Positions 51,935-61,872 of a stretch of 64,000 bases of DNA are shown here, piece by piece. Origin of the DNA: Parvicella tangerina (lineage in GTDB: Bacteria > Bacteroidota > Bacteroidia > Flavobacteriales_D > Parvicellaceae); NCBI RefSeq assembly GCF_907165195.1, contig NZ_OU015584.1, forward strand, positions 496,001 to 560,000. Direction: 5' to 3'. The notes beneath the pieces were generated by a model. It saw only the letters and a program-made list of their open reading frames with translations, was not told the origin of the DNA and searched no databases. The position numbers were made by a program, and so were the translations under genes. How positions within the stretch are numbered: the first letter of the stretch is position 1; each line of letters begins with the position of its first letter.

Positions 51935-53068
51935 GTGATTAAAGTTACAGTCATAATAGCCCTCTTAGTTTTATTTTCATGGAGTTGTACTTCTACGATG
52001 AGTGAGAGTAAAGAGAGCCCTGATGGAGCTAATTTTCCTCAAGAACCAGTCAAGGTTGCCTATTCAAAAACTTTTGAGATTGATACGCTGGATGGTTTTC
52101 AAGTGCTGAGAATAAAAGACCCACAAACAGGTGACTCTCGCGATTACACATTAGTGCCGAAAGGGATGGATGCTCCAGAAAATAGAGCCGTGATCTTTAC
52201 GCCAGTAAGGGACTTGTCTTTGTTCTCGGTTAGTTTTGTCGGTTATTTGGACGCCCTTAATGCGTTGGACAAGGTGAAGTATATTGAAAATATAAATTAC
52301 ATATACAACCCCGCTATCATTGAGCTTTATGAGAAAGGAAGTGTTATGGAGTCTGGTTTGTATGGTCAGTGGAATATGGAAAAGCTGATCTTAAATTCGC
52401 CAGAATTAATGATGATCAATGACTTTCCAGAAAGTAGCAATGAGCTCAACAAGTTGCTGAAGGCAGGAATCAAGGTGCTTCCCATAATGGAATGGCAAGA
52501 GCAGGATCCACTGGCGAGAGCTGAATGGATCAAAGTTTTTGGAGCGTTGTTAGATCAGGAGGAAGAAGCACAGTTTATTTTCGATCAAATCGAAAAGGAT
52601 TATCACAAAGCAAGTGATGAGATTAGCCCAGATACGAGTGGAATACAGGTCCTTTTTTCTTCGATGTATCAAGGTGTATGGTATATGCCAGGAGGAAATA
52701 GTTATTTGGCTAACCTTTTACGTGATGCCAAAGGGACTTACGCCTGGGAACATACTATTGAAACTGGAAGTTTGAGTCTTAGTTTTGAAGAAGTGATACT
52801 GACCTCGCTAAAGAATGATGTTTGGATTAACCCAGATGCAAATAGCTTGTCAGAACTGTATGCAAGAGATGGTAGGTATCAGAAATTCGTTGAGGAATTA
52901 AGTGGAGGAGTCTATCAAAACAATAAAAGAGTAAATGCTAACGGTGGGAATGATTATTGGGAGTCTGGAGTGGTAAGACCTGATCTTATTCTGAAAGATT
53001 ATGCTAAGATGCTATATCCCGATGCTAAAAAGGGGGTAGAGTTGTTCTACTTTCAAAAACTGAACTAA
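51935..53068 (+). CDS. ABC transporter substrate-binding lipoprotein (iron-siderophore/B12 type)
   Basis: The start is GTG 51935 followed by a lipoprotein signal (ITVIIALLVLFSWSC type, Cys18). The 377-residue product fits the helical-backbone binding proteins of the BtuF/FecB class: SFVGYLDALNALDKVKYIEN, YGQWNMEKLILNSPELMMIN, MYQGVWYMPGGNSYLANLLR and VRPDLILKDYAKMLYP. It delivers a metal chelate or corrinoid to a FecCD-type permease. Its likely partners lie at 60120 and 61147, separated by the chaperone/usher-like genes. It converges on the MORN protein gene with a 4-bp overlap. Confidence 0.9.
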   Translation: MIKVTVIIALLVLFSWSCTSTMSESKESPDGANFPQEPVKVAYSKTFEIDTLDGFQVLRIKDPQTGDSRDYTLVPKGMDAPENRAVIFTPVRDLSLFSVSFVGYLDALNALDKVKYIENINYIYNPAIIELYEKGSVMESGLYGQWNMEKLILNSPELMMINDFPESSNELNKLLKAGIKVLPIMEWQEQDPLARAEWIKVFGALLDQEEEAQFIFDQIEKDYHKASDEISPDTSGIQVLFSSMYQGVWYMPGGNSYLANLLRDAKGTYAWEHTIETGSLSLSFEEVILTSLKNDVWINPDANSLSELYARDGRYQKFVEELSGGVYQNNKRVNANGGNDYWESGVVRPDLILKDYAKMLYPDAKKGVELFYFQKLN

Positions 53069-54285
53069 TCCTCTGTTAGCGGAAGTGTCCGCACTAACTC
53101 ATCATCTTTATATTCTGCTTTTTCAATGAGCTTACCGCTCTTATCGTAAGCTCTTCCAATCCCGTTACGCATTCCGTTCACATATTCATGTGTTGTTCTT
53201 AGTTCGCCAGTATCATAATAGAACTTCCACTTCCCGCTTTTCAAACCTTCTTTGTAGCCACCTTCAAAGGCCAAAGAGCCATCTTCGTTATAGAATTTCC
53301 ATATTCCACTTTCTTTTCCTTTAATATATGTGCCGGTTTGCTTTCTCGTCCCATCAGGAAAGTAAACATCCCAAATACTGTCTCGCTCACTACTTTTATA
53401 ATACCCCTCGTAGTATACTTGTTCTCCTTCTGGGTAGTATATTGTCCATTTGCCCGTCTTCTCCCCATTTACAAATTTTCCGACCATGTAAAGAGTGTTT
53501 AATGAATCGTCAAAATACTCCATGTAATCTCCTTCCTCAATATTGTTCTTAAAGTAATATCGATTCATTATATTTCCTGAAGGATAAAAGCCTTCAAATA
53601 AGCCTTCTAGTTTGCCATTTTCGTAACGACAAATCTTCTGAGGCATTCCTTTGTGCTCTTTATAATATCCAACATACTTTCCATGTAATTCGTTGTCTTT
53701 TTTTGTGGTTTTTTCAGCAATGTGACCATTTTCGAAGTATCTAGTGTAAGGTCCGTTGAAAGCTCCTTTCGTCATGATGGCTTCATAATGAAGTTGCCCC
53801 GATTCGTAATACGCTTTTATTTTTCCTGAGGGAAGTCCAAATTGATAGGTCGAGCGCTCCTTAATGTTACCATTTTCATGATAAATCACCACCTCTCCTT
53901 CTAAAACATCATTTTGATAATTCATCACTTCATGGAGTTGCCCATTGCGATAATAAGTCTTTGATTCCCCCTGAAGCAATCCCGATTTAAAAGTCATTTC
54001 TTGCTTCAACTCTCCAGTTTCATGGTAGAGTTTCCAAGGACCTTCAAGTTGATTCTGATCAAACCTCCCTTCTTGACCTAGAGTGCCGTTTGGATAAAAG
54101 TATTTGTATTCACCCTGTCTAAGGGTGTCTTTTGTATTCTTGTCAATAATTGCAGAAAACGACTCTTTTAAACTGCCATCAGCATACTTTAATTCGATGT
54201 GTTTTGCTTTCTGAGCGTATGAGGAGAGACCAATTAAGAAAAAAGTAAAAAAGAGGAAACTTGATTTCATCAGACGATGCATCAT
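53065..54285 (-). CDS. Secreted MORN/YwqK-type repeat protein
   Basis: The 406-residue protein has a signal peptide (LMKSSFLFFTFFLIGLSSYA) and roughly fifteen repeats of YxNGxLxGxxxxYYxxG type, for example HENGNIKERSTYQFGLPSGK and YNEDGSLAFEGGYKEGLKSG. The automatic family name (toxin-antitoxin YwqK antitoxin) should not be read as function; no toxin is nearby. Its ATG overlaps the stop of the chaperone gene (ATGA), so the two are translationally coupled. It may be a periplasmic or surface part of the assembly system. Confidence 0.8.
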   Translation of the reverse strand: MMHRLMKSSFLFFTFFLIGLSSYAQKAKHIELKYADGSLKESFSAIIDKNTKDTLRQGEYKYFYPNGTLGQEGRFDQNQLEGPWKLYHETGELKQEMTFKSGLLQGESKTYYRNGQLHEVMNYQNDVLEGEVVIYHENGNIKERSTYQFGLPSGKIKAYYESGQLHYEAIMTKGAFNGPYTRYFENGHIAEKTTKKDNELHGKYVGYYKEHKGMPQKICRYENGKLEGLFEGFYPSGNIMNRYYFKNNIEEGDYMEYFDDSLNTLYMVGKFVNGEKTGKWTIYYPEGEQVYYEGYYKSSERDSIWDVYFPDGTRKQTGTYIKGKESGIWKFYNEDGSLAFEGGYKEGLKSGKWKFYYDTGELRTTHEYVNGMRNGIGRAYDKSGKLIEKAEYKDDELVRTLPLTED

Positions 54286-55079
54286 AGGTCAATCATAATT
54301 TGAGTTCCTTCTAAATCTGAACCGTGACCATAATCTAGGATCGCTGCCAATGCGTGTTTTCCAGACCCTTCTCCTTTAGGTAGCGATAGGATAAAAGTTC
54401 TTTTTTCCCCAGGGTAAACGCGTTGCATTTGTGAAGGATATTTCTTTTCCGTAGCTGTCGATAAATTAGCAAGGTAAAGCTGGACGCTGGCTTCAAGTAT
54501 TTTGTCTCCAGTGTTTTCTACGGTAACTTGATATTGATAGGTAGAGTCCTCTGCGGTGGTAATGTCTTTAAGATCATAAATCTTTCCACTGTAGTTGGAG
54601 TTTGATTTAGGAGATTGATTTATTAACACGGCAATTCTCGGTTTAACTCGAATACCAGTCTGAAGCTGTTTGTCAACAGGATTTTCTGTTTGTTCTTCGG
54701 CCGTTTGAACATACAGTAAACACCACCTTGTATCATAACCGTCTTTTGGAACAGTCATCAGTACCGAAATATTTTTCTCTTCGTTCGGATTCAATTGAAT
54801 AAAAGATGGCGTTACGGTAGTCCAGTTTGCGCAGCTCTTTTCCGATTGTCCAGCAGGGATTCTCTTTTTGTCACCTTTTTCGTCTATAATAAAGTCTCCA
54901 AGAGTGATGGTGTAAGACTGTTTAATGTTTGCATGGTTACGAATTGTAATCTCAGCCTTTTGGATCTCTCCAGGGTTAGCATCGAAATTGACAATTACTG
55001 GCGCCACCTCAAAATCTTGGGCCATACAAAACCCCAACAAAAACTGGATAAGTAAAATACTGACAATGCCTTTTTTCAT
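54282..55079 (-). CDS. PapD-like periplasmic chaperone
   Basis: I prefer ATG 55079 (signal MKKGIVSILLIQFLLGFCMA). The 265-residue product has two Ig-like halves: FEVAPVIVNFDANPGEIQKA with EITIRNHANIKQSYTITLGD, then VTPSFIQLNPNEEKNISVLM (like the TPPLFRLEPG strand of pilus chaperones), and a second domain (YQYQVTVENTGDKILEASVQ, YPGEKRTFILSLPKGEGSG). The layout fits pili-assembly chaperones or DUF916-like proteins. It is divergent from the two small secreted proteins and the outer-membrane barrel, its inferred clients and exit port. Confidence 0.7.
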   Translation of the reverse strand: MKKGIVSILLIQFLLGFCMAQDFEVAPVIVNFDANPGEIQKAEITIRNHANIKQSYTITLGDFIIDEKGDKKRIPAGQSEKSCANWTTVTPSFIQLNPNEEKNISVLMTVPKDGYDTRWCLLYVQTAEEQTENPVDKQLQTGIRVKPRIAVLINQSPKSNSNYSGKIYDLKDITTAEDSTYQYQVTVENTGDKILEASVQLYLANLSTATEKKYPSQMQRVYPGEKRTFILSLPKGEGSGKHALAAILDYGHGSDLEGTQIMIDL

Positions 55080-55329
55080 GTTTATAGATCTGTAAAAGAT
55101 TAAGATAAATGGTATTATTTTCAAATGTAAGTAAAAATCTCTCATCTAACTGACAAAAATGAGGCCAAAGAAAGCTTGTCTTGATGACTGAGTAATGTTT
55201 GTCAAAGAATCAAACTGTTTTAAATGACTAATAAGTCTGTTGATGGATGATTTTAATTTTTTTGAAGAGAATTTGGAACTCATTTTGAAAAAAACCGTAA
55301 ATTGCAACTAAACCTAAAAACTTAAGAGG

Positions 55330-55989
55330 ATGAATTTAAAGAAAATTACACTGATTGCAGCTGGTCTGGTTATAGGGTCGGCTAGCGTGAATGCACAGGC
55401 AGTAAGAGACAGAAATGTTGTTCCTGTCGCTGTAAACCTTAACGAGGTATTAAGAATGACGATTACCAATGGGGGTAATATCGAGTTCACATTTAACTCT
55501 ATTGATGACTATCGTGATGGACTTTCAGGGGATGCTGCTACTTCAGGTTCTGCCAACCCAGCAACTTCTGATCCAATGTATGTTACAGACTTTACAATTG
55601 CGTCATCTACAAGATGGGAGCTAAGCTATGGTTCTGAAGAAGCAACTTTTATTGGTACAGACAATCCTGCTAATACATTGTCTTTAGATAATGTTGGATT
55701 TAACCTAGCATCTAACGGAACACATGCGTTCTTAACAGAGCTTACATCTGCTCCGACAACTGATGGAACTGTAATTGCGGATTTAGATGTTTTCCCTGTA
55801 GTATTAATTACTGATAATGGAAACGTTCTATCTTCTGCAGGTGATGTAACTGATAATGACTTTACCATCACTTGGAGATGTGGTACTACTGAAGGTGATA
55901 TGAATGCAACTTCAATTTTGGAGCAAGATCCTTCTCCAACTCCAGATAGATACATTACAAACGTATTGTTTGAATTAGCGTCTCTATAA
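55330..55989 (+). CDS. Secreted pilin/WxL-like subunit, major (candidate)
   Basis: The 219-residue protein has a signal peptide (ITLIAAGLVIGSASVNAQA). The mature part is beta-rich and small-residue-rich, with LRMTITNGGNIEFTFNSIDD, RWELSYGSEEATFIG, DFTITWRCGTTEG and a C-terminal strand ITNVLFELASL that could serve as a subunit-exchange strand. It shares the motif IEFTFN/IEFNFN with the next gene and also its ending (YxTxxxxxEL). A hairpin follows at 56007-56040, which would reduce transcription of downstream genes and favour this as the major subunit. The function is inferred. Confidence 0.65.
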   Translation: MNLKKITLIAAGLVIGSASVNAQAVRDRNVVPVAVNLNEVLRMTITNGGNIEFTFNSIDDYRDGLSGDAATSGSANPATSDPMYVTDFTIASSTRWELSYGSEEATFIGTDNPANTLSLDNVGFNLASNGTHAFLTELTSAPTTDGTVIADLDVFPVVLITDNGNVLSSAGDVTDNDFTITWRCGTTEGDMNATSILEQDPSPTPDRYITNVLFELASL

Positions 55990-56006
55990 TTAAATATTCA
56001 TAAAAC

Positions 56007-56047
56007 TGGGTGTCGCTATGCTTTTGTCTAGTGACGCCCATTTGTTT
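56007..56047 (+). terminator. Terminator/attenuator between the two candidate subunit genes
   Basis: TGGGTGTCGCTA pairs with TAGTGACGCCCA over 12 bp with two G-U pairs and a 10-nt loop, followed by TTTGTTTTAT. It lies 17 bp after the first subunit gene and 19 bp before the second, with no clear promoter between, so partial read-through is likely. Confidence 0.65.
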
Positions 56048-56058
56048 TATGTTTAAAT

Positions 56059-56598
56059 TTGATGAGGGTTTTTGTAGTTGGGATATTGCTAATGGTTGCT
56101 TGCCTAAACGGCAGTTCACAGGATAATTACGCCCGTCTAACTGTTTTGATTGGTTCTCATATAGAGTTTAACTTCAATACATTAGACAAATACAACACGG
56201 GGATTCAAATACCTGATGGGACCACACTAGGAGTGGCTATCGGGGAAATTGCTCCAGCTGTAATGACAGGGTGGCATTTAGATGTGCAAACTTTTCTTGG
56301 TGCTACTGACTTAGTTGGCAGTACAGGAGCAACATTGCCTTCTGAAACGATTCAGATAGAGGCAACTGATGCGAACGGAAATTTGGGTACTGCAATTTTT
56401 GCTGGTCCCAGGGACCTAACTGCTGCTGGTGCAACACTTATGAGCACAAATGATTTAACTGATATTCCTGCAGACCCTAACACTCATCAGATTAACATTA
56501 CTTATGATTGTGGTACAACGCCTGCTACCAACTTGCTTGGAGCAACACCAGATTACTACACGATTGAGGTTGAGTTTATCTTAATACCTGATTTTTAG
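56059..56598 (+). CDS. Secreted pilin-like subunit, minor (candidate)
   Basis: The 179-residue protein has a signal peptide (FVVGILLMVACLNGSSQ). Its mature part resembles the upstream protein: LTVLIGSHIEFNFNTLDKYN, TGWHLDVQTFLGATDLVGST, INITYDCGTTPATN and a final strand YYTIEVEFILIPDF. The two share the order of a conserved strand, a W-containing strand, a C-GTT loop and a C-terminal strand, so they are paralogues. It lies 34 bp before the barrel gene. It is probably a minor or adaptor subunit. Confidence 0.65.
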   Translation: MMRVFVVGILLMVACLNGSSQDNYARLTVLIGSHIEFNFNTLDKYNTGIQIPDGTTLGVAIGEIAPAVMTGWHLDVQTFLGATDLVGSTGATLPSETIQIEATDANGNLGTAIFAGPRDLTAAGATLMSTNDLTDIPADPNTHQINITYDCGTTPATNLLGATPDYYTIEVEFILIPDF

Positions 56599-56632
56599 GT
56601 AAATCTATCACTTGTAAAACGAGTAATAATAG

Positions 56633-59600
56633 ATGATTAGAAAATTACATCTATTTATAGTAATAGTCTTTTCGGGTCTTGTCCTCCAGGTACAAGCATC
56701 AAGCATGATGGTAATCATTGATGGGGGGGAGGATAGTACGAAAAAAGAAAAGGACGGCATTGATGAACTTATTCTTCAAGATAGTCTAAACGCACTCAAT
56801 AAAAAAATTCAAGTCGCTTTCAAACTTAAGAAAGTTGAACAAAGCGCTGATTCCGTTTACTTTAATGTGGTTACTTTCACAAACACGGATTCAAAAACTA
56901 TTTCAGGAGCTTTGCAAGTAAGGGTTCCCAATGATTGGAAGCTCATTGCTGATCCTTCCATGGACAACATAGAACTTGCTCCAAATGAAACGATTTCACT
57001 CCCCGTCAGGGTTTCAATACCCTTGAATTCTACTGGAGGAGTAGCTTATGTAATTGACGCTTCATTCACAACACAAAACGGAATCTATTCGGGTGCGGCT
57101 TATGTTAAGATTCCGATGAAGTCAAAGTGGGATGCTGAAGTATTTGAAAAACAGGTTTACTTCAACGAATTATTTGATCGTGTTCCATTTAAATTGAAAA
57201 TTGTCAATGAAGGAAATGCTACTGAATTACTTAAAGTTAATTTGGATGTAGGTAGACTTTACAATATCATCGAATTGGACAAAGAGGAGTTTTATGTTGA
57301 AGTTCCACCCCTTTCTGATACAATTATTGAATACACCGTAGAATCAAATGATCTTTTGACGATCGAACAGCGGACCGAATACGGAATGATTTGGGATGAA
57401 TCATCTGTAAAAGTAAAGATAGTTGGTTCAGATGGTAAAAAGTTCCAAGATGCGGTACATTACCTTGACTTAGAAAATGAGCTAACAACGCAAAGACAAG
57501 AGAAAAATACTCCGCTTAACGTTGATTTTAGCATCTTCAATTTGTTATCCCCAAACCCAACCTTTGTGAACCTTTTGGTTTATGGACAACTTCTATTTAA
57601 AGGAGATCACGACCTGAGTTATATGGGGAATTTTAGAAATATCTACAGAAATGGTCAGTTTTTCGGACCAACATTTTGGAGTAATCCTAATAACATTCGG
57701 TATCAATTGGGATACTCTTGGAAAGATAGACTACATGTAAATGCCGGACTTATTACGAACTACACGCTCCACACTGGGAGGGGAATAGGAGCACGAGCTT
57801 CTTATGACATCACTGAAAAGGATCGTGTGCAAGCCTCGTTTGTGAGTAATCAGTTTCTTCCCATTATAATTGGAACAGCTGAATACCATAGAAGACTGAA
57901 GACAGGTATAAACCTTAACATTGGGCTTACTTACGAAGATAATGATTACGTAAACTATCAAGCGTATTCAACTCAATTAGGTGGTAGCTTTGTTTTTGCT
58001 GGTAGTCAGAGTATATCGGGACAAGTGTTATTGACCAATGCCAGGTTTGACGCTACTGCGTTTGGAGGAAGTTCTGATTCTTCGCTAGTTGGAGCATCCT
58101 ATAACTTCAAGTATTCTGGAGCTTTTATAGATAACAAATTGAGGGTTTCTTTATCTACCAGGAACGATCAATTTAATTTTTTAAGGTTGAGACCTGTGCA
58201 TGTGATCAGTGGTAATAGCCTTTATAGAATCAATAAGGTTAGTAATGTTAAGGTGTTCGGGATCTACAATGCTGTCAAACCAAGTCGCTACACACTTAGC
58301 CCATTCTATAATGGTCTTTATGCAGAAACACAGGTTTATAGAGCTACATACCAGTATAGATTCAATGATAAGGTAACAAGTGAGGCGGGTCCTATGGCTA
58401 AGATATTATCGAGAAGGAGTTTTGATAATTCGCTAGGTCTTTATGACGATTTTGATAACTACTTTATCGGAGGGTACTTCAATACGCGATTCAGGTTGAA
58501 TGAGCGAACATTTATTTCTCCTACATTGACCATCGGACGCACATCTTTTAGAAATATTTTAAGTGACTCAACAATACTTAGCCCAATATTAAGTACTTCC
58601 GTTGGGGCGAACATCACAGGAAGAAACTTTAGATTCAATGCAAGTTATATTCGAGGCCCCATGTTTTTTGTGGATGATGATTATATTCTTTTTGACGAAA
58701 TCTCTATGGAGACGGTTTCTTTAAGGGGGCAGATGGATAAATTCATTTACAAGAATACGATAAAACTCAGTGGTTTTGCTAATTACTATTTAAGGCTTCC
58801 TTCTAACCGTCAGAGCATAGTTCTCTCAGGAAGGACTGACTTTTTCTTCCCTGAAGGGTGGAGAGCTTACCTTACTGCAGGCATTTTTACGAATAGTTAT
58901 GTCGATGAAAGCACACAAGGTATAAGTGCGTCTCGTTTTTTCAACTTGAACGTAGGTGTAATCAAGTCATTTGGTTTTAATCAACCAAGAATCAAATATA
59001 GTGATGTTGAGTTTGTTTGTTTTAATGACTTCAATGGTGATGGTGAACGTCAGGAAAATGAGCCGCTCTTACCGAATATAAAGGTTAAACTTTCTTTAGA
59101 CCCTAATTACGATGACCCAAGAGGAATCAAATGGGGAGAGCGTGAATTGATGACCTCAGCAGAAGGTAAGGTAGTCGTTCACAACATGCCCGATATCAAC
59201 TATCTAGTTAACTTTAAACCAATGGTCAATTTAGGTACGCTGTACAATGTTAATGGCGATAATCAGATCATATCAGTGAATGAAGATAGGGTCATATATG
59301 TGCCTTATGCGGAGAGCTACCGTGTTTATGGAAATGTAGTAATGAATCGAGATGAGTACTCTTCAAAAGGGTTAATAAACGTTGGGGGCATTAGAATAAC
59401 AGCAACAAACTTGAAAGGGGATGCGTATAGTGTATTAACCGACAATGACGGAAGTTACGTGTTGAATGTTCCGCAAGCGGGTAGTTATGTGATTTCAGTA
59501 AATAATATTTTTGGTGACCAGTTCTATATTGATAAAGAGTCTTTTGTTATCCAATTTGATGGATTTAAGACGTATCAGTTAGATTTCACTTTCTATGAAG

Positions 59601-60127
59601 GTAAACGTAAGGTAAACTTTGGAGGAGATAATATCTTTAATTTCCAATCTTTGAATGGATCAGGTGATGATAATAATTCTGATCAGGAGGGTGCAAACGG
59701 TGCTGGAGAGAATACTTCCAATGCTGATAGCACTGACACGGGAAATAATGCGGCTCCAAATGGCGACTTTATGCAGAATGCTCAGAAGCTAAGAGAGGAA
59801 ATAGAAAAGATAAGTAAGGAGAATGAAAAGACAATTGAAACTCCAGTGAACCCCGATGATGTCAGATATATGGTAGAAATTGGAGTGTTTGACGATGAAA
59901 TTGATACCGATGTTGCCAATCTGATCCTAAGTCTTGGGTTTACACCTACAGCGATTAAGGTAGATGGTGTCACTGTTTATGCCACTCCAGTTAAGAAAAC
60001 TCATGCTGAGATTAATGAAGTTCTGCAGTCGATTTATGATGCTGGACTCTCTGAAGCGATGATCGTTGGAATCTATCAAGGCAAAATAATCACCGAAGAC
60101 AAAGCCCGAGAATTTAGAGGTGAATAA
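56633..60127 (+). CDS. Usher-like outer-membrane barrel with Ig-like, regulatory-like and SPOR-like parts
   Basis: The 1164-residue protein has a signal peptide (LFIVIVFSGLVLQVQAS). Residues about 40-290 are Ig-like, with IELAPNETISLPVRVSIP like NEW3-type domains. Residues about 290-790 are strands with aromatic ends (GASYNFKYSGAFIDNKLRVS), as in a large barrel. A SdrD-like segment FNDFNGDGERQENEPLLPNI (about 798) and a carboxypeptidase-regulatory-like domain (SVLTDNDGSYVLNVPQAGSY) follow. Then come an Asp/Asn-rich linker and a C-terminal SPOR-like domain (YMVEIGVFDDEIDTDVANLI, about 1078 on). The order barrel then plug-like Ig recalls pilus ushers, but no classical usher signature is recognised. 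It overlaps the permease gene by 8 bp. Confidence 0.7.
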   Translation: MIRKLHLFIVIVFSGLVLQVQASSMMVIIDGGEDSTKKEKDGIDELILQDSLNALNKKIQVAFKLKKVEQSADSVYFNVVTFTNTDSKTISGALQVRVPNDWKLIADPSMDNIELAPNETISLPVRVSIPLNSTGGVAYVIDASFTTQNGIYSGAAYVKIPMKSKWDAEVFEKQVYFNELFDRVPFKLKIVNEGNATELLKVNLDVGRLYNIIELDKEEFYVEVPPLSDTIIEYTVESNDLLTIEQRTEYGMIWDESSVKVKIVGSDGKKFQDAVHYLDLENELTTQRQEKNTPLNVDFSIFNLLSPNPTFVNLLVYGQLLFKGDHDLSYMGNFRNIYRNGQFFGPTFWSNPNNIRYQLGYSWKDRLHVNAGLITNYTLHTGRGIGARASYDITEKDRVQASFVSNQFLPIIIGTAEYHRRLKTGINLNIGLTYEDNDYVNYQAYSTQLGGSFVFAGSQSISGQVLLTNARFDATAFGGSSDSSLVGASYNFKYSGAFIDNKLRVSLSTRNDQFNFLRLRPVHVISGNSLYRINKVSNVKVFGIYNAVKPSRYTLSPFYNGLYAETQVYRATYQYRFNDKVTSEAGPMAKILSRRSFDNSLGLYDDFDNYFIGGYFNTRFRLNERTFISPTLTIGRTSFRNILSDSTILSPILSTSVGANITGRNFRFNASYIRGPMFFVDDDYILFDEISMETVSLRGQMDKFIYKNTIKLSGFANYYLRLPSNRQSIVLSGRTDFFFPEGWRAYLTAGIFTNSYVDESTQGISASRFFNLNVGVIKSFGFNQPRIKYSDVEFVCFNDFNGDGERQENEPLLPNIKVKLSLDPNYDDPRGIKWGERELMTSAEGKVVVHNMPDINYLVNFKPMVNLGTLYNVNGDNQIISVNEDRVIYVPYAESYRVYGNVVMNRDEYSSKGLINVGGIRITATNLKGDAYSVLTDNDGSYVLNVPQAGSYVISVNNIFGDQFYIDKESFVIQFDGFKTYQLDFTFYEGKRKVNFGGDNIFNFQSLNGSGDDNNSDQEGANGAGENTSNADSTDTGNNAAPNGDFMQNAQKLREEIEKISKENEKTIETPVNPDDVRYMVEIGVFDDEIDTDVANLILSLGFTPTAIKVDGVTVYATPVKKTHAEINEVLQSIYDAGLSEAMIVGIYQGKIITEDKAREFRGE

Positions 60128-61154
60128 CTTTGGGGTAACAAAGATTGTTTTGTCGAAGTCTCCTCACATAATTATTGTCTCTTTAATACTGGTGCTTTTT
60201 GCCTTGTTAAGCCTCATTCTGGGATCAGAGATTGTTGCTGTTAATGATTTGTTTTCAGGACTCATCGAAGACAATAAGTATCGTTTTATTTTGATGGAAT
60301 TAAGGTTGCCCAGAGTACTAACGGCTGTGCTCGCTGGAGCTGCCTTGGCTGTAGCTGGTCTTCTGATGCAGTCTTTCTTCAGAAATCCATTAGCAGGACC
60401 GTACATACTGGGAGTGAGTGCTGGAAGCGGACTGGGTGTGGCGCTGCTCATTCTTTTTGGATCGTCCGTAGGGTGGAAACTCGTGCAAATGAATAACGGA
60501 GTAATGCTGTTCAGTGTGTTGGGTGCCGCTGGTGTGCTGGGAATTATTTTGTACTTGGCTAAGAAAATAGGTAATGGAGCGATGTTACTTATTGCAGGCT
60601 TGATGGTAGGAGCCTTTGCGAGTGCCGTGGTGAGTGTTCTACAATTTTTTGCGCCTAGTGAAAGCATTAAGAAATATTTGCTCTGGACAATGGGAAATCT
60701 GTCTGCTGTTGAGATGTCTGAAATGTTTTTGTTTGCGCTACTAACCCTGGGGTTCATCGCATTTTCGTTTTTTAAAATCAACCCTTTAAATGCACTTTTG
60801 CTTGGGGATCAGGCTGCTCAAAGTTTAGGTGTTGACGTAAAGAAAACAAGATTCACTGTAATCCTGATAGCAGGAGTGCTGGCTGGAGTAGTTACAGCAT
60901 ATTGCGGCCCAGTTGCGTTTATTGGTTTAGCAGCTCCACATCTCTCAAGACTGATAGCTAAGACAAGTGATCATCGAACCTTAATCCCGCTTTCAGCACT
61001 GCTGGGTGCTTTGTTATTGGTTGTGTGTGATATGGTAGCTCAGGTTCCTGGGTTTGACTTGCTATTGCCGATTAATGCCGTCACATCTCTTGTGGGTGCC
61101 CCTTTGGTGATTAGTATTATTCTTAACAATCGAAAAACATGGTTGAATGAATAA
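60120..61154 (+). CDS. FecCD/BtuC-type ABC permease
   Basis: The 344-residue protein starts at GTG 60120, overlapping the barrel gene stop (GTGAATAA). It has about ten membrane segments with family motifs LPRVLTAVLAGAALAVAGLL, MQSFFRNPLAGPYILGVSAG, the coupling segment GDQAAQSLGVDVKKTR and GPVAFIGLAAPHLSRLIA. It carries iron chelates or corrinoids inward with the ATPase gene that overlaps its end by 8 bp and, by inference, the binding protein at 51935. Confidence 0.94.
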   Translation: MNNFGVTKIVLSKSPHIIIVSLILVLFALLSLILGSEIVAVNDLFSGLIEDNKYRFILMELRLPRVLTAVLAGAALAVAGLLMQSFFRNPLAGPYILGVSAGSGLGVALLILFGSSVGWKLVQMNNGVMLFSVLGAAGVLGIILYLAKKIGNGAMLLIAGLMVGAFASAVVSVLQFFAPSESIKKYLLWTMGNLSAVEMSEMFLFALLTLGFIAFSFFKINPLNALLLGDQAAQSLGVDVKKTRFTVILIAGVLAGVVTAYCGPVAFIGLAAPHLSRLIAKTSDHRTLIPLSALLGALLLVVCDMVAQVPGFDLLLPINAVTSLVGAPLVISIILNNRKTWLNE

Positions 61155-61872
61155 GAAGAGTACGATATTAGAGGTTGAGGACCTAATTATTGGCTACAAG
61201 AATAAGGAACTGGTTAGGAGTATAAACGTAAGCGGCTCTGCAGGACAGTTTATTTTACTGGTTGGTGCAAATGGAAAAGGGAAGTCTACGTTGCTGAAAA
61301 CATTAATGGGACACTTAGCACCCATTGCAGGAAAGGTTCGTTTGAAAGGAGAGGATCTTGCAGATTTGAGTTTAACGACTATAGCTCAAACAGTTGCATT
61401 TCTTTCAGGAAATACCCATTTGCCGAGTTCAGTTACGGTTAACGATCTCTTACAGTTTTCTAGAATACCCTACCAGAGCGGTGTGAGAGGAATCCGTGCA
61501 GAAGATCGCAAGGTAATTCGGCAAGTAGTAGATGAGATGGGTATTGATGACTTCCTTGAAAAACCTTATATGTCATTATCCGATGGACAAAAGCAACTGA
61601 TAAATATTGCTCGCAGTTTAGTTCAGCAAACACCGATCATTTTACTCGATGAGCCAACAGCTCACTTAGATGTGGTCAACAAAAGAACAGTTTTTCAGCT
61701 GTTAAAAGATCAAACAGAAAAAGGGAAGTTAATTGTCTGCTGCTCCCATGATCTTGCTGAAGGAAGCTTATTTGCAGATGAGGTTTGGCTAATTAATAAA
61801 GCCGATAACTTTGAAGTGGTGGAAATGTATAAGGAGATAACTACCTCTGATCTGGAGTCTCGTCTTTTCTGA
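61147..61872 (+). CDS. FecE/BtuD-type ABC ATPase
   Basis: The 241-residue ATPase has Walker A VGANGKGKSTLLKTLMGHL, Q-loop IAQTVAFLSGN, signature MSLSDGQKQLINIARSL (LSDGQ variant of LSGGQ), Walker B IILLDEPTAHLD and the switch CCSHDLAEG. It powers the adjacent permease. The ATG overlaps the permease stop by 8 bp. It converges on the TauE/SafE gene with a 1-bp gap. Confidence 0.95.
   Translation: MNKKSTILEVEDLIIGYKNKELVRSINVSGSAGQFILLVGANGKGKSTLLKTLMGHLAPIAGKVRLKGEDLADLSLTTIAQTVAFLSGNTHLPSSVTVNDLLQFSRIPYQSGVRGIRAEDRKVIRQVVDEMGIDDFLEKPYMSLSDGQKQLINIARSLVQQTPIILLDEPTAHLDVVNKRTVFQLLKDQTEKGKLIVCCSHDLAEGSLFADEVWLINKADNFEVVEMYKEITTSDLESRLF

Follow-up and report, generated by a model that had tools for sequence, protein, structure and literature searches.

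The stretch analysed here, called the window below, spans 64,000 nucleotides of Parvicella tangerina (Flavobacteriales; assembly GCF_907165195.1, contig NZ_OU015584.1, positions 496,001 to 560,000; G000:C1:496001-560000). It holds at 53065-60127 a five-gene cassette which probably represents a Bacteroidota pilus pathway of the chaperone-usher type, with an usher family of its own and assembling TLP-type pili by donor-strand exchange. A MORN protein and a chaperone are encoded on the minus strand; divergently from these, the plus strand encodes two pilins (pilin 1 and pilin 2) and a 1164-amino-acid outer-membrane barrel. Gene content, conserved linkage, a PapD-like chaperone, a predicted usher-like barrel and the homology of the pilins with TLP chains, all obtained by computation, lead to this reading. 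A preliminary description of the window had placed all these genes correctly, and its proposal of a system analogous to chaperone-usher, devoid of the classical usher signature, is supported by what follows. Loci and genomes of the comparison carry L and G numbers.

The pilins and the TLP fibres

Pilin 1 (55330..55989, plus strand) is the candidate major pilin, and pilin 2 (56062..56598, plus strand; ATG 56062 is a more likely start than TTG 56059) a candidate tip or end subunit. They had been regarded as two paralogous small secreted beta-proteins, and they are indeed distant paralogues, their relatives cross-matching at E values of 6e-4 to 1e-6. A profile of 18 pilin-1-type rows, searched against the PDB, matches TLP-2 (9ikk) at E 6.4e-25 and TLP-1 (9ikj) at 5e-24, the sole matches at E <=0.001; both entries comprise 16 chains. 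Taken singly, the pilin of L040, a locus with a chaperone-pilin-pilin-usher operon, matches TLP-2 at E 1.7e-48 from chain residue 2. A profile of distant pilins that excludes the window's clade matches pilin 1 at E 1.7e-6, pilin 2 at 5.3e-8 and TLP-2 at 5.7e-24. Used as a query in turn, TLP-2 matched six of 399 genomes of the order, with best identities of 39-47 %, and in all six the TLP-2-like pilin gene adjoins a chaperone and/or usher-like gene; in the genome of the window itself there was no match at 1e-5. By these sequence comparisons the pilin family is homologous to the chains of 9ikj and 9ikk.

The likeness includes the N-terminal segments, which correspond (NVTVTMDLQPVLQL in TLP-2, NVVPVAVNLNEVLRM in the window). 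The difference is that TLP-1 and TLP-2 are known as fibres only, and we found no source naming their assembly genes. We take the two PDB entries to be the CryoSeek fibres. The CryoSeek tubes described by Wang et al. in 2024 are reportedly about 8 nm wide, the N-terminal strand of protomer n+4 completing protomer n. According to a passage of a review (PMC12967142), the pond-water filaments of the CryoSeek authors had received no conclusive identification.

The distance from the predicted signal cleavage site to the common IEFxFN motif is longer by about 14 residues in pilin 1 than in pilin 2. In pilin 1, the first 15 residues after the predicted signal peptide (residues 23-37; 55396..55440, plus strand) form a candidate donor strand, aligning with the starts of the TLP chains via L040, and pilin 2 of the window is without such a segment. 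As regards donor-strand exchange, this N-terminal extension of pilin 1 is the only element seen; its length is near that of the CupE donor strand, given as 13 residues in a passage of PMC10104325. Cys-bearing N-termini of pilin 2 in L077, L082, L084-L088, L090 and L095 do not fit the rule of a pilin 2 without extension.

The place of pilin 2 is taken in eight distant loci (L041, L057-L063) by another protein, which has an extra N-terminal domain and a C-terminal pilin domain; the pilin domain was called at E 3.3e-16 or better among 13 proteins searched, the weaker case of L056 being uncounted. An extra N-terminal domain ahead of a C-terminal pilin domain is the architecture of tip adhesins. 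A family scan that covered L160, L164 and L172, loci more distant still, found DUF4402 in one pilin of L160 and, below the cut-off, in one of L164. The comparison by hhalign of the pilin alignment with E. coli K-12 families gave no support (3.8 %).

A secreted protein of 143-153 amino acids was also observed 5' of a pilin (L058:3877-4311, L060:9382-9813, L061:11142-11576, L062:10522-10983). Its first residues (LNVxLYPVQM or similar) resemble the donor strand of a pilin; the protein is too short for a full domain, and is possibly a terminator or a regulator of assembly.

The PapD-like chaperone

The gene at 54282..55079 (minus strand) encodes the two-domain protein announced in the preliminary description as a PapD-like chaperone with two immunoglobulin-like (Ig) domains. 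Its predicted model (mean predicted local distance difference test, pLDDT, of 85) indeed displays two beta-sandwich Ig domains, linked by a loop of low confidence (129-145). A strand with alternating hydrophobics comes after this loop; residues 143-155 (54615..54653, minus strand) are the candidate G1, or donor, strand, as judged from DSSP, pLDDT, the alternation and R148. In PapD, the pair R8/K112 is the Arg/Lys pair anchoring the C-terminus of the pilin. R148 is found in 13 of the 16 rows of alignment A5 and in 19 of the 25 rows of alignment A10; a second Arg is present in seven of the 15 A5 rows having letters at that column, and absent from the window's own clade.

Foldseek lists WxLIP first for this model, then CfaA, EcpB, CsuC, Caf1M and FimC, with other Ig-repeat proteins interspersed. 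Over residues about 27-263, VIA-align gives Z 13.5 for WxLIP, which is tied with CfaA (12.9), and 11.9 for FimC, single-domain glycosidase matches coming next at about 11. When 16 members of the family were aligned by hhalign with eight chaperones of E. coli K-12, the match reached 93.9 % (E 1.6e-7, 195 columns), with a score of 56.7; the highest score among 100 column shuffles was 21.9. In Pfam, fn3_5 is barely over the cut-off (E 4.6e-6). By fold and by profile the protein is thus a PapD-like two-Ig periplasmic chaperone, and on the profile evidence it is kin to the PapD superfamily. Its start is probably ATG 55079, not the longer open reading frame start at 55145, because all 25 aligned rows keep the QDFEV motif behind the signal peptide of the former unchanged.

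The predicted usher-like barrel

For the 1164-amino-acid product of 56633..60127 (plus strand), the model, the fold searches and the relatives point to an usher-like outer-membrane protein. The model (mean pLDDT 78) contains all the parts previously announced, on the plus strand in this order: N-terminal Ig-like (NEW3-like) domains (residues 59-285; 56807..57487; NPCBM_assoc E 0.0014, below cut-off), a beta-barrel (residues 295-780; 57515..58972), beta-sandwich domains (CarboxypepD_reg/SdrD_B-like, below cut-off; residues 789-989; 58997..59599), which occupy the place of the C-terminal domains of FimD, and a SPOR-like C-terminal domain (59840..60112). The model therefore predicts a large outer-membrane barrel with further domains on both its N- and C-terminal sides. 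The barrel had been expected to have 24 strands and a plug; a barrel is predicted, but it has 26 strands, a count made by DSSP on one predicted model that may be off by two, and shows no plug-sized insertion. Foldseek places two ciliary central-apparatus proteins first, then FimD (E 1.2e-11), the best barrel match, and PapC (1.4e-8). Among the matches listed by VIA-align, only FimD aligns the barrel and the C-terminal domains together (model 292-988).

PF00577 was found in none of 60 genomes, that of the window included, the E. coli control being positive. It is not among the families listed for the usher-like protein of the window, nor for five distant ushers, nor among the best 25 of 27 families for 17 members of the usher family. 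Judging from these searches, the protein would not be an usher of the PF00577 (FimD/PapC) family, and the outer-membrane pore of the cassette looks like belonging to no described usher family.

The SPOR-like end has no PF05036 match in its own right; it resembles (E 6e-11) part of a 718-amino-acid protein of the same genome (G000:C1:2817479-2817775; L042:5465-7621) that carries SPOR (PF05036, E 2.8e-16). Matches of this kind recur in many relatives. SPOR is above the cut-off in the usher C-termini of L081, L083, L089, L160, L164 and L172. We also observe that the usher-like proteins of the metagenome-assembled genomes (MAGs) L081, L083, L089 and L091 reach 1378-1537 amino acids, with long C-terminal tails, and that the usher-like gene at L077:10437-13924 lies in two overlapping frames (894 and 283 amino acids), by frameshift or assembly error.

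Conservation and linkage across Bacteroidota

The preliminary description had made conserved synteny a test of its proposal, and the gene order is indeed conserved in relatives across Bacteroidota. The five genes in divergent layout also occur in L032, L033, L034 and, cut by a contig end, L037; truncation is more severe in L006, L035 and L036. In the set of 60 genomes, the usher-like protein is full-length in six genomes besides that of the window (in G032 with one internal stop codon); several more have partial or distant matches, and many of the remaining matches concern the SPOR-like part only.

A scan of named genomes baited with the pilin patterns AQAVRDRN and NLN[EQ]VLRM gave 32 loci, from Flavobacteriales (Crocinitomix, Cryomorphaceae, Salibacteraceae), Bacteroidales, Paludibacter, unplaced Bacteroidota and one Chitinophaga-labelled MAG; L064, L068, L069 and L070 are apparently the same contigs as L035, L037, L033 and L032. 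As both patterns sit in the pilin N-terminus, the N-terminal conservation among these loci is partly a matter of ascertainment. The usher-like gene is present in 24 of the 32 loci, the remaining eight stopping at contig ends, and the chaperone in 28. Where the chaperone is missing, L064 and L080 extend only 154 and 450 bases beyond the start of the pilin before they break off; in L094 the break falls within the pilin, and the 9 kb upstream contain no chaperone; L089 has none in 1.1 kb upstream or in 4 kb past the usher-like gene. In all four cases the genome has a chaperone gene at another place (E 8e-102 or better). Of the 28 loci with a chaperone, 25 have it in divergent orientation; in the other three, L081, L083 and L091, MORN and chaperone genes lie past the usher-like gene. 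The MORN gene stands beside the chaperone in 26 of these 28 loci (not L065 and L066); it was not found in L040, L041 and L118-L121, L055-L063 being outside this test.

An usher-only profile matched ten of 394 genomes of the phylum, that of the window included, and in the nine others, whose loci were left out of the chaperone and pilin profiles, both kinds of genes are adjacent. A broader usher profile (A6) matched 47 of the 394 genomes. At 16 places the match spans at least 700 of 947 positions, always with a chaperone within 1.7 kb; ten of these were sources of the profiles and six were not (second loci in G061, G071, G152, G267 and G365, plus G125). The weaker places were not counted as ushers, since most are confined to the C-terminal beta domains (positions 715-945 or so); a chaperone nevertheless lies within 2.6 kb of those in G316, G244, G299, G434 and G063, and within 3 kb of two pieces in G428. 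The chaperone profile itself has 80 places in 67 of the 394 genomes, and neighbours were checked for a minority of them.

Further from the window, L160, L161, L164 and L172 combine small secreted proteins, a chaperone and a gene of 1122-1239 codons weakly matching the usher profile. Among 13 stretches fetched, L169, L170 and L171 showed no clear usher-profile match. In L038 and L039 the usher is a fragment at a contig end, and the DNA examined shows no chaperone. A gene for an HTH_18/AraC-family regulator lies upstream in L057, L058 and L060, the three scanned among the nine loci of the usher-only profile. Single-sequence searches performed poorly: P0003 and pilin 1 (P0004) gave nothing relevant in the PDB, and a first scan of genome contigs with the usher-like protein gave nothing. 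A weak pilin match elsewhere in the window's genome, L122, looked unrelated and was set aside.

Altogether pilin, chaperone and usher-like genes are grouped as in the operons of chaperone-usher systems, which often include an adhesin; L089 is the exception. In the literature searched, no title or abstract describes this gene set.

Weighing the reading

A number of results weigh against a chaperone-usher-type pathway making TLP-type pili. For the pilins, P0004 alone has no PDB match, and a profile of its close relatives reaches TLP-2 at E 0.085 only (15.5 bits versus 10.5 for the best of 500 shuffles); the link between window and TLP therefore runs through intermediates. As for linkage, L089, a Paludibacter MAG, keeps pilins and usher-like gene together, and its chaperone is on another contig (G790:C100:147311-148096), truly unlinked because it lies well inside that contig; in L171 a chaperone match has no usher or pilin match in 12 kb.

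Concerning the chaperone, a narrower alignment of 25 close relatives gave 13 % with chaperone-usher chaperones. PapD_N is detected in four of the 16 family members, the window's not among them, with a best E of 0.0025. Besides, the closest structural match is WxLIP of Enterococcus faecium (9i25, 9i1y), tied with CfaA. WxLIP has the nearest fold over both domains; it differs by its Gram-positive setting without outer-membrane barrel, and the identity in structural alignments is 11-13 %. The two-Ig protein could then be a WxLIP-like scaffold or anchor, holding small proteins secreted through the barrel at the surface or at the peptidoglycan, with no pili at all. This we consider improbable. The match itself (Foldseek E 2.6e-11, Z 13.5), weak WxLIP_PGBD matches in 11 of 16 chaperones (under the cut-off in the window's, E 0.0057 and 17.1 bits versus 27.3, WxLIP_HBD not being listed) and the SPOR domains of some usher relatives would agree with it; however the pilin family is homologous to chains of two solved 16-chain entries, the match with the profile of chaperone-usher chaperones covers both domains, and the distant loci have the two-domain adhesin-like architecture, which all favour pili.

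Other adverse points come from the barrel. The predicted template-modelling score (pTM) of the model is only 0.48. No plug is predicted, the gaps between strands of the modelled barrel being at most about 20 residues. SPOR is not universal: ushers of 930-970 amino acids stop before the SPOR-like part, and the domain is below the cut-off in L163 and not found in L165. The TM-scores to FimD in Foldseek are low (at best 0.24 by query and 0.35 by target), and VIA-align ranks Mtr complex chain B (Z 19.2), FecA (16.5), LptD (16.4) and other barrels above FimD (14.3). Nor is kinship with E. coli ushers detectable by sequence: hhalign gives 9.5 % over 45 columns, and PF00577 is not matched. The usher-like protein might still be a true member of the FimD superfamily, diverged past sequence recognition. 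This is a question of kinship, compatible with the chaperone-usher-type pathway proposed here, and we hold such a descent for possible, though somewhat less probable than the contrary. FimD heads the barrel proteins in Foldseek, barrel and C-terminal domains align with it in order, and the chaperones of the two systems are homologous by profile; against this stand the hhalign result, PF00577 not being found, the lack of a plug and the higher VIA-align scores of other large barrels.

The cassette within its genome

The MORN gene (53065..54285, minus strand; MORN_2 E 7.3e-36, in 10 stretches), which overlaps the chaperone gene by 4 bases, would encode a secreted, putatively accessory protein. 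All five products have, by eye, signal-peptide-like starts. The family scan of window proteins found no Pfam family above cut-off for the pilins and the barrel, and NCBIfam leaves chaperone, pilins and barrel unnamed above its cut-offs. The G+C content of the cassette (38.1 %, versus 39.1 % for the window) gives no sign of a recent foreign origin.

According to the same family scan, the cassette is flanked by a binding-protein gene (51935-53068, Peripla_BP_2) on one side and, on the other, by a FecCD permease gene (60120-61154) followed by an ATP-binding cassette (ABC) ATPase gene (61147-61872). Its 7 kb split a binding protein, permease and ATPase set of the B12 or siderophore type, between btuF- and btuC-like genes, a placement unique to this genome among the loci examined. 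The preliminary description was right on this position, but the ABC setting turns out to be incidental. A close FecCD match occurs in 28 other genomes. Eleven of these permease loci were compared: in ten the binding protein is directly beside the permease, and in the exception, L105, no binding-protein match was found. The cassette therefore interrupts the ABC set and is no part of it; the ABC genes are bystanders. That the barrel would be an uptake porin or receptor of these btu/fec-like genes, with pilins and chaperone as mere neighbours, is very unlikely indeed. Its position between binding protein and permease genes and the TonB-receptor barrels among the VIA-align matches would suit this role, but the ABC genes are contiguous without the cassette in those ten relatives, a search of 46 cassette or operon loci for the three ABC genes turned up no close homologue (only distant ATPases, in L074), and the barrel travels with chaperone and pilins.

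A possible assembly pathway and its significance

From these data we infer the following course for the chaperone-usher-type pathway. The pilins would reach the periplasm via Sec, where the two-Ig chaperone would complement each incomplete pilin with its own G1 strand. The chaperone-pilin complex would then dock on the N-terminal Ig domains of the 1164-amino-acid barrel and the subunit pass through it, the chaperone strand being displaced by the N-terminal extension of the pilin 1 that comes next, so that a TLP-type tube would grow outside. Pilin 2, having no extension, might serve as tip or end cap, as counterpart of the adhesin-like protein with two domains that distant relatives have in its place, and the SPOR-like end of the usher-like protein may hold it to the peptidoglycan.

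With the Fim, Pap, CFA/I, Csu and CupE systems the cassette shares a PapD-like chaperone, N-terminally extended pilins and a linked large barrel with N- and C-terminal beta domains, and its distant relatives share the two-domain adhesin-like protein. It differs from classical and archaic chaperone-usher systems by an usher outside PF00577, modelled without plug-sized insertion and bearing SPOR in part of the family, and by pilins not recognisably similar to those of E. coli (the 3.8 % above). We do not file it among them because the usher does not fall in their family and its model is without plug.

The type V pili of Bacteroidia (FimA/Mfa1) are likewise fibres of Bacteroidota for which strand exchange is proposed. 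A difference is that P. gingivalis is described, in a passage of PMC5954841, as without chaperones and ushers, which is given as one ground for setting up the type V class. An usher-like family across Bacteroidota would alter the picture behind this class of Bacteroidia pili. More broadly, we find the arguments evenly balanced for a pathway proper to Bacteroidota, in which a PapD-superfamily chaperone and an unrelated, plug-less and often SPOR-tethered usher would make tubular TLP-type pili; the pond-water TLP fibres would then come from this pathway, and usher-mediated secretion would have a second solution in it.

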